Source: Haladaptatus sp. DJG-WS-42 (GTDB taxonomy: Archaea > Halobacteriota > Halobacteria > Halobacteriales > Halococcaceae). From it: 64,000 nt of DNA. The DNA lies in assembly GCF_037198285.1 (NCBI RefSeq), contig NZ_CP147243.1:434001-498000 (forward strand), written 5' to 3'. The notes beneath the pieces were generated by a model. The model searched no databases. It saw only the letters and a list, made by a program, of their open reading frames with translations, and had not been told where the DNA came from. Below, in pieces: positions 47,434 to 48,688 of the stretch. A program made the translations under genes and the position numbers. Positions within the stretch are counted from its first letter, which is position 1. Each line of letters starts with the position of its first letter.

Positions 47434-48633
47434 TCAGAACTCGCCTGCGATGATGTCTGCGACGCGCTGGCGGTCGAACAGTTTCGTATCTCCGTCTTCT
47501 TCGCCGAACACGTCCGGGTAAAGTTGTTGTGCGCCGCGTTCGGTGAGGAACAGGTTATGAATCGGTCCTTGGAACAGGTAGCCACCGCGGTACACCTGCT
47601 CGTTTTGGACGGCGGTGAGTTCGCGTGCCAGTGAGTGCTCCTGCATGAACGCGAGCACCGTGTCGCGGAACTCGGCCGCACTCTTGCGCTCGTGGGCGCG
47701 CAGCATGATGACGTCCGGGTCGATTTCGAGCATCGTCTCGTAGTCGATGCGCCCGCGGTCGGTCGTGCTGAGGCCTTGGATACCCGTGCCTGAGAGCGCG
47801 TCGCTCACGCCGAGGTCGCGCCACTGTTTCTTGCTCGTGCCCTTGTCGTTCAACCGGTAGGGTGAGAACTCCTCGGGTTCGTTGCTTCCCTCGTACACCA
47901 GCAACACGTTCGGCCGGTCGTCTGCGGGTGGCAGTTTGGTCTGGATATTGGCGATGAACGCGTTGTGGAGTTCCGCGAACGCCTCGTAGCGTTCCTGTTC
48001 GCCGAACAGCTGGGCCACTTTCTCGAAGGCTTCGTACAGCGTGTAGTAGCGGTAGTCGTGCCAGTCGTCCTCGCGGCGGAAAATGAGATTCCCGAAGAAG
48101 GGGCCGACGTTTTCCGTGATTTCGGCCACGTCCTCCTCGCTCCAGTCGAACCAGTTTATCAGCATTTGCGGGTCCATCACGTGGACGTCGTTATCGAGTT
48201 CGTAGAAGATCTCCTTCGACATCCCCGCCTCGCCGAGGTCGTTCGCTTCGAGCATGTCGCGGTTTACGCTCACGCCGGGGAGTTCGTCGTACACCTGCGT
48301 GTAGTAGCGACCCGACCCGCCGATGCCCGTCATCCCATCGCCTTTGCCGAGGGCGACGCCCATGTCCGCGTAGCCGCCGTCGTAGGCGACCCATTTCTCT
48401 GGAACCGACTCGAACGTGAGTTCACCGACTGGCTCCATCGAGGCGGTGTAGCTGCTCGACTCGGTTTCGGTCGTCTGCCCGGCGGTGGCCGTGTCACTCG
48501 CCGCCGATGTCGTGGTCTCTGCTGGCGTGTCACCCGTACAACCCGCGAGCAGACCAGCGCCGAGCAGCGCGCCGCCGTAGGTGATGAAGTTTCTCCGCGT
48601 CGGTGCATCTCGTGATTCCTCAGTGCCCGTCAT
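47434..48633 (-). CDS. ABC transporter substrate-binding lipoprotein, iron/siderophore type
   Basis: This 399-aa protein starts with a Tat lipoprotein signal: RRNFITYG (R13, R14) and lipobox LLAGC (C32), then a Thr/Ser-rich linker. The body looks like the periplasmic-binding fold of Fe3+-siderophore/BtuF proteins (PEKWVAYDGGYADMGVALGKG, IDPDVIMLRAHERK, LTAVQNEQVYRGGYLFQGP). It would capture a metal chelate outside the cell. No permease or ATPase gene adjoins it. Two DtxR-like palindromes overlap its promoter, so iron control is likely. Confidence 0.85.
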   Translation of the reverse strand: MTGTEESRDAPTRRNFITYGGALLGAGLLAGCTGDTPAETTTSAASDTATAGQTTETESSSYTASMEPVGELTFESVPEKWVAYDGGYADMGVALGKGDGMTGIGGSGRYYTQVYDELPGVSVNRDMLEANDLGEAGMSKEIFYELDNDVHVMDPQMLINWFDWSEEDVAEITENVGPFFGNLIFRREDDWHDYRYYTLYEAFEKVAQLFGEQERYEAFAELHNAFIANIQTKLPPADDRPNVLLVYEGSNEPEEFSPYRLNDKGTSKKQWRDLGVSDALSGTGIQGLSTTDRGRIDYETMLEIDPDVIMLRAHERKSAAEFRDTVLAFMQEHSLARELTAVQNEQVYRGGYLFQGPIHNLFLTERGAQQLYPDVFGEEDGDTKLFDRQRVADIIAGEF

Positions 48634-48636
48634 GGT

Positions 48637-48652
48637 TTTAGGCCCACCTAAA
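48637..48652 (-). promoter_or_regulatory. DtxR/Idr-type operator, proximal
   Basis: TTTAGG-CCCA-CCTAAA is a perfect 6-bp inverted repeat that matches the TTAGGnnnnCCTAA core bound by DtxR-family iron-dependent repressors. It lies 4-19 nt before the ATG at 48633, over the expected transcription start. Confidence 0.75.
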
Positions 48653-48672
48653 CCAACATAACTGTGTCGATT

Positions 48673-48688
48673 TTTAGGCCAACCTAAA
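48673..48688 (-). promoter_or_regulatory. DtxR/Idr-type operator, distal
   Basis: TTTAGG-CCAA-CCTAAA is the second near-identical palindrome, centred 36 bp upstream of the first. Together they bracket the likely TATA region (TTATG near 48658). Confidence 0.75.

Follow-up and report, generated by a model that had tools for sequence, protein, structure and literature searches.

Two palindromes around the promoter of a binding-protein gene

The window (the whole stretch of DNA analysed, 64,000 nucleotides, G000:C1:434001-498000 of a 2.78 Mb chromosome) carries on its minus strand a gene, P0001 (47434..48633, ATG at 48633), for a Tat/lipobox substrate-binding protein of 399 aa. Its match to Pfam Peripla_BP_2 (2e-18) agrees with an earlier note on this DNA, which had assigned the promoter to a binding-protein gene, and by its sequence P0001 is a predicted binding lipoprotein of the Fe-siderophore type; its closest relatives are found in Haladaptatus and Halogranum, with 76% identity at best among 40 relatives, and these relatives place the source of the DNA among the haloarchaea.

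Read along the minus strand, the region before P0001 consists of a distal palindrome (TTTAGGCCAACCTAAA, 48673..48688), the spacer AATCGACACAGTTATGTTGG, a proximal palindrome (TTTAGGCCCACCTAAA, 48637..48652; neither palindrome is assigned a strand), the bases ACC and the ATG (48633), the proximal site ending 3 bp before the start codon. Both palindromes are exact copies of TTTAGG-N4-CCTAAA and their start-to-start distance is 36 bp; the earlier note had placed them correctly. It had also matched them to the core recognised by DtxR-family repressors, and both sites do contain, without mismatch, the DtxR/IdeR-type core TTAGGN4CCTAA, which PMC8464063 proposes as a redefined 14-bp IdeR/DtxR consensus after a single dimer was found on a half site. 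The exact pattern TTTAGG-N4-CCTAAA occurred in none of 100 dinucleotide shuffles of the window, and with up to two mismatches allowed, at least two matches were present in 7 of the 100.

Between the palindromes, and on the same strand as the gene, are a BRE-like CGACA (48665..48669), to which the distal site is directly upstream, and a TATA-like TTAT (48658..48661), which is separated from the start codon by the proximal site. These compare with the CGAAA (BRE) plus TTWT (TATA) that PMC4983044 proposes as the haloarchaeal promoter consensus, and both stand at the positions seen in a logo of 39 promoters (below). The centre of the TATA-like element is 26.5 bp upstream of the P0001 ATG, which fits a leaderless start, and the start codon follows the proximal site by only 3 bp, implying that the predicted P0001 transcript is leaderless; PMC4983044 gives 72% of Haloferax volcanii protein-coding transcripts as leaderless. 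The pair was said in the earlier note to bracket the promoter, and BRE and TATA do lie between the sites here and in the logo. Of its two more detailed placements, that of the distal site on the upstream side holds, while the proximal site, which was said to cover the transcription start, lies between TATA and that start and not clearly over it.

A spacing of 36 bp is 3.43 helical turns, so dimers bound at the two sites would sit on nearly opposite faces of the DNA and cooperativity by contact is not the obvious reading. Cooperative dimers, which the earlier note had thought possible, are accordingly doubtful if direct contact is meant, and since 3.43 turns is the main spacing, a contact model based on helical phasing was not retained. 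The sites may cooperate through the DNA, as PMC8464063 argues for IdeR.

Sites across the genome and the genes behind them

Scanning the genome for the palindrome, a check proposed in the earlier note, gave nine exact sites (none with the reversed control pattern) and four with one mismatch, and the sites other than those at P0001 mark siderophore and iron-uptake genes. When up to two mismatches were allowed, 23 sites were found with the true pattern versus 53 with the reversed control; two-mismatch sites are not above the control and were dropped, so weight is placed only on the exact and one-mismatch sites. Seventeen stretches were fetched around sites, seven of which (L035-L041) surround two-mismatch sites and were inspected as reading frames only.

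The exact and one-mismatch sites mark ten promoters. Like that of P0001 with its exact twin sites 36 bp apart, the promoter of a diaminobutyrate aminotransferase and decarboxylase has an exact pair (93309 and 93344, 35 bp apart), and that of a FecCD permease and ATPase has an exact site at 1870160 and a one-mismatch site at 1870196, again 36 bp apart. Single exact sites precede a ferric-type ABC operon of SBP_bac_6, permease and ATPase genes (19790), an RGP-family gene (PF03214; 21020), a metallo-beta-lactamase-fold gene followed by an adenine deaminase gene (572649) and a GNAT gene (984134), and single one-mismatch sites precede genes for a glycosyltransferase (12881), a gluconate dehydrogenase subunit (65493) and a ZIP transporter (1423466). 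Half of the ten promoters, that of FecCD included, serve metal uptake or siderophore synthesis genes, the placement at iron-uptake promoters that characterises a DtxR/IdeR-type operator; the other five (GNAT, metallo-beta-lactamase fold with adenine deaminase, RGP, glycosyltransferase and gluconate dehydrogenase subunit) have no obvious iron role. There are two FecCD permeases in the genome, and the orphan binding protein of the window would most naturally pair with the one that has the twin sites.

Some of the less obvious targets have counterparts elsewhere. The RGP-family gene is directly upstream of the ferric-type ABC operon, and both have a site of their own (G000:C1:18602-20999, L025). 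Exact sites separated by about 1.2 kb are met again in G003, G011, G014, G020, G059, G109, G203 and G211, and in five genomes RGP-like genes stand behind pairs spaced 26, 29 or 43 bp. Adenine deaminase-like genes stand behind sites in two distant genomes (G000:C1:572649-575512, L028; and L128) and might be under the same control as the sites' other targets.

Conservation of the pair and of its geometry

An exact site is present in 285 of the 293 genomes of the order (254 of the 255 of good quality). Two cores 6–36 bases apart (N6-36) were found in 185 of the 293, with none for the reversed control, and two cores 37–67 bases apart (N37-67) in 24. Spacing was measured in 28 genomes chosen for having pairs, which gave 87 pairs in the 0–30 range, and the 75 listed ones were fetched. 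In 69 of these 75 the centre-to-centre spacing is 34–37 bp (exactly 36 in 47), and the remaining six are at 26 bp (one), 29 bp (three), 33 bp (one) and 43 bp (one); the N31-61 range yielded two pairs in the same 28 genomes. Such clustering is practically impossible under a uniform spread over 31 gaps, a statistic to be read with the fact that the promoters are not independent, many belonging to orthologous binding-protein genes.

As a check independent of the motif, the 40 relatives of P0001 were fetched by protein similarity alone and up to one mismatch was allowed per site. Thirty-one of them have a pair at 34–37 bp (22 at 36 bp, and three each at 34, 35 and 37 bp) with the proximal site in the same position before the ATG. 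The other nine comprise one 26-bp pair, five single sites and three relatives with no site, two of which apparently come directly after another binding-protein gene while the third is a fragment that matches from residue 276 onwards. No pair arose in 200 rounds of block-shuffling the sequences upstream of 39 of these loci, all but the fragment. That the palindromes are chance occurrences without function could be argued from the two-mismatch forms, which are no commoner than their reversed control, but with no exact site in the shuffled windows and with spacing and position conserved in 31 of 40 relatives we consider it extremely improbable. The same layout recurs before haloarchaeal iron genes, which suggests a standard iron switch whose geometry is unusually fixed.

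Automatic choice of start codons was poor (4 of the 106 pairs had no orientation and several rows had an internal start), and the promoter logo was therefore restricted to the 39 of the 106 pairs that satisfied a strict rule: spacing of 34–37 bp, ATG 3–12 bp after the core and a frame no shorter than 140 aa. With the promoters lined up by their proximal sites and numbered from the TTAGG there, the logo has C at -18 (35 of 39), G at -17 (33 of 39) and an A-rich run to -14, which together are CGAAA-like, followed by TTWT at -10 to -7, and the ATG comes mostly 4–5 bp after the 14-bp core. From these positions the two sites flank BRE and TATA and leave both free. Among 21 promoters with a spacing other than 36 bp, 14 keep the register of the proximal site (three of them with scores below zero), five follow the distal site and two follow neither, so pinning of the core promoter to the proximal site is only a tendency; two genomes are counted twice.

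Archaeal activators can act about 40–55 bp before the start, and the distal site lies at about that distance. Conceivably the proximal site represses and the distal one serves activation by the regulator, in its apo or metal-loaded form; in all seven Haloferax relatives there is one mismatch in the distal site and none in the proximal site, as if their roles differed. Both sites in the window have the same core, however, and we regard such a division of labour as very unlikely.

Other spacings were also met with. Of the pairs at the first 28 loci listed in the N6-36 range (27 of these loci belong to family f17), 13 have a spacing of 20 or 21 bp, or two turns. Where the frame could be resolved, the f17 pairs at this spacing (L044, L048, L050, L051, L053, L055, L056, L058, L059, L065 and L067) stand 2–3 bp before a gene for a ~150-aa protein of unknown function. 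Several genomes of the f17 genus g20 have a recurring ~53-bp pair with a conserved AATTGAAAAGTATTTC stretch in its spacer.

Candidate regulators and proposed mode of repression

The earlier note had named absence of a DtxR-family gene from the genome as grounds for giving up its reading, and the genome has two genes, and only two, that score above the cut-offs for PF01325 as well as PF02742. The first, P0002 (G000:C1:217788-218480, minus strand, 230 aa; PF02742 1.5e-31, PF01325 3.8e-20), has the make-up of a DtxR-family protein, with Fe_dep_repress and Fe_dep_repr_C domains and a C-terminal FeoA/SH3-like domain. It aligns over its length with the solved IdeR, SloR and ScaR, and its metal ligands are kept. 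Met10 and Cys102 of IdeR are metal ligands, and manganese regulators have acidic residues in their places. P0002 does not have the Met10 and Cys102 type of ligands of an iron-specific, IdeR-type regulator: its Asp8 and Asp101 align with these two residues, and SloR and ScaR are also acidic there, so it is the target genes alone that point to iron as the effector.

The repressor could thus be the same and the metal sensed in vivo be manganese, or both metals, with the iron genes part of a broader divalent-metal regulon. In favour of this are the Asp at the Met10 place and the acidic residue at the Cys102 place, as in SloR and ScaR; the best NCBIfam match of P0002 is an MntR model, although below cut-off, and a ZIP transporter has a one-mismatch site. 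The exact-site targets that can be identified, on the other hand, are siderophore and ferric uptake genes, and the annotated genes adjoining exact sites include no manganese-specific transporter. We judge this reading unlikely.

The promoter of P0002 itself has the weaker variant TTTAGA..TCTAAA and not TTTAGG..CCTAAA. Thirty P0002-orthologue loci were collected, one of them without a start, and among the 29 scored, 14 carry, shortly upstream of the start codon, a TTTAGR-type palindrome that matches at 10 or more of 12 positions (mean of the shuffles 0.12), the other 15 falling below that level. The palindrome of the P0002 promoter (TTTAGACGCGTCTAAA) occurs a second time at G000:C1:1280375-1280390 (L033), between DoxX-family and DUF7471 genes. 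A P0002 relative is present in every one of 80 genomes compared, and exact sites in 79; G101, the only good-quality genome without a site, has a relative that is 41% identical versus at least 52% in the other 79, a case that counts as a single event. Six lower-quality genomes, 58–89% complete (G127, G001, G018, G042, G016 and G025), lack exact sites although they encode a P0002 orthologue of 52–59% identity, so the two are not strictly coupled; in G032 (71% complete) both are missing.

The second candidate, P0003 (G000:C1:2336941-2337399, L034; 152 aa), is SirR-like and is encoded downstream of genes that we take, from their first residues, to be suf-like. There being two palindrome types (TTTAGG..CCTAAA and TTTAGA..TCTAAA) and two DtxR-family genes in the genome, P0003 could bind the TTTAGG sites and P0002 only the TTTAGA variant in its own promoter. 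In P0003, however, three of the four primary ligand positions are taken by Gln, Lys and Ser, and it looks unlike a normal metal-activated repressor; G101 keeps SirR-like proteins yet has no site, and palindromes upstream of P0002 orthologues that combine the two kinds of half-site, such as TTTAGG..TCTAAT, suggest that one protein reads both types. This assignment of the two regulators is in our view very unlikely, and P0002 is likely the protein that binds the TTTAGG sites.

The interpretation in the earlier note holds up for the most part. We conclude that the palindromes are probably operators of a metal-activated DtxR-family repressor, most likely P0002, that caps the core promoter in metal-replete cells. 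One repressor dimer would then occupy each site, the proximal dimer between TATA and the leaderless start and the distal dimer directly upstream of BRE, and the two would close off the core promoter at either end, so that RNA polymerase, or TBP/TFB, could not assemble there. On a fall in iron the metal would leave the repressor, the DNA would be released and P0001 would be made, its likely co-induced partners being the FecCD permease and ATPase, the siderophore-precursor enzymes and the ferric-type ABC transporter. We infer repression and the step that is blocked from the position of the sites and from the example of MDR1 of Archaeoglobus fulgidus. This archaeal metal-dependent regulator has several operators at and after the start. 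According to PMC2995911, it works by excluding RNA polymerase from a preinitiation complex.

The sites share the core TTAGGN4CCTAA and iron-uptake targets with the IdeR/DtxR operators of Actinobacteria; the usual actinobacterial site spans 19 bp, with two dimers bound to opposite faces of it (PMC8464063), whereas the window promoter has 14-bp cores twice, 36 bp apart, around BRE and TATA. Halobacterium Idr1 and Idr2 and Haloferax Idr, SirR and TroR are haloarchaeal DtxR-family regulators of iron homeostasis (PMC11349517), and the portions of the literature on haloarchaeal Idr, SirR and TroR regulators that were searched say nothing of twin sites kept at a constant distance. DtxR-type operators in front of iron-uptake genes are of a known kind. 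Leyn and Rodionov 2015, reportedly a comparative study of archaeal DtxR regulons, lies outside the literature searched, whose accessible parts make no mention of a fixed bracket around BRE and TATA, and this bracket may be undescribed.

Tentatively, and with clearly less confidence than in the operators themselves, we propose a module that could be haloarchaea-wide: two single-dimer DtxR-type sites 36 (34–37) bp apart, on nearly opposite faces and with only the BRE/TATA core between them, before leaderless iron genes. Repression would be by capping of the core promoter, possibly with TBP/TFB already bound, and not by covering of TATA or by dimer contact, and spacings of 20/21, 26/29 and ~53 bp would be gene-specific versions. 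This gives a testable rule, in which a DtxR-type core is fixed in position relative to the haloarchaeal core promoter, that could be used to predict haloarchaeal iron regulons from sequence alone, and it raises the question of how a repressor in archaea can shut off a TBP/TFB promoter while leaving TATA free.

As to P0003, it carries a CPDC...C tail and may sense something else, perhaps an Fe-S cluster.
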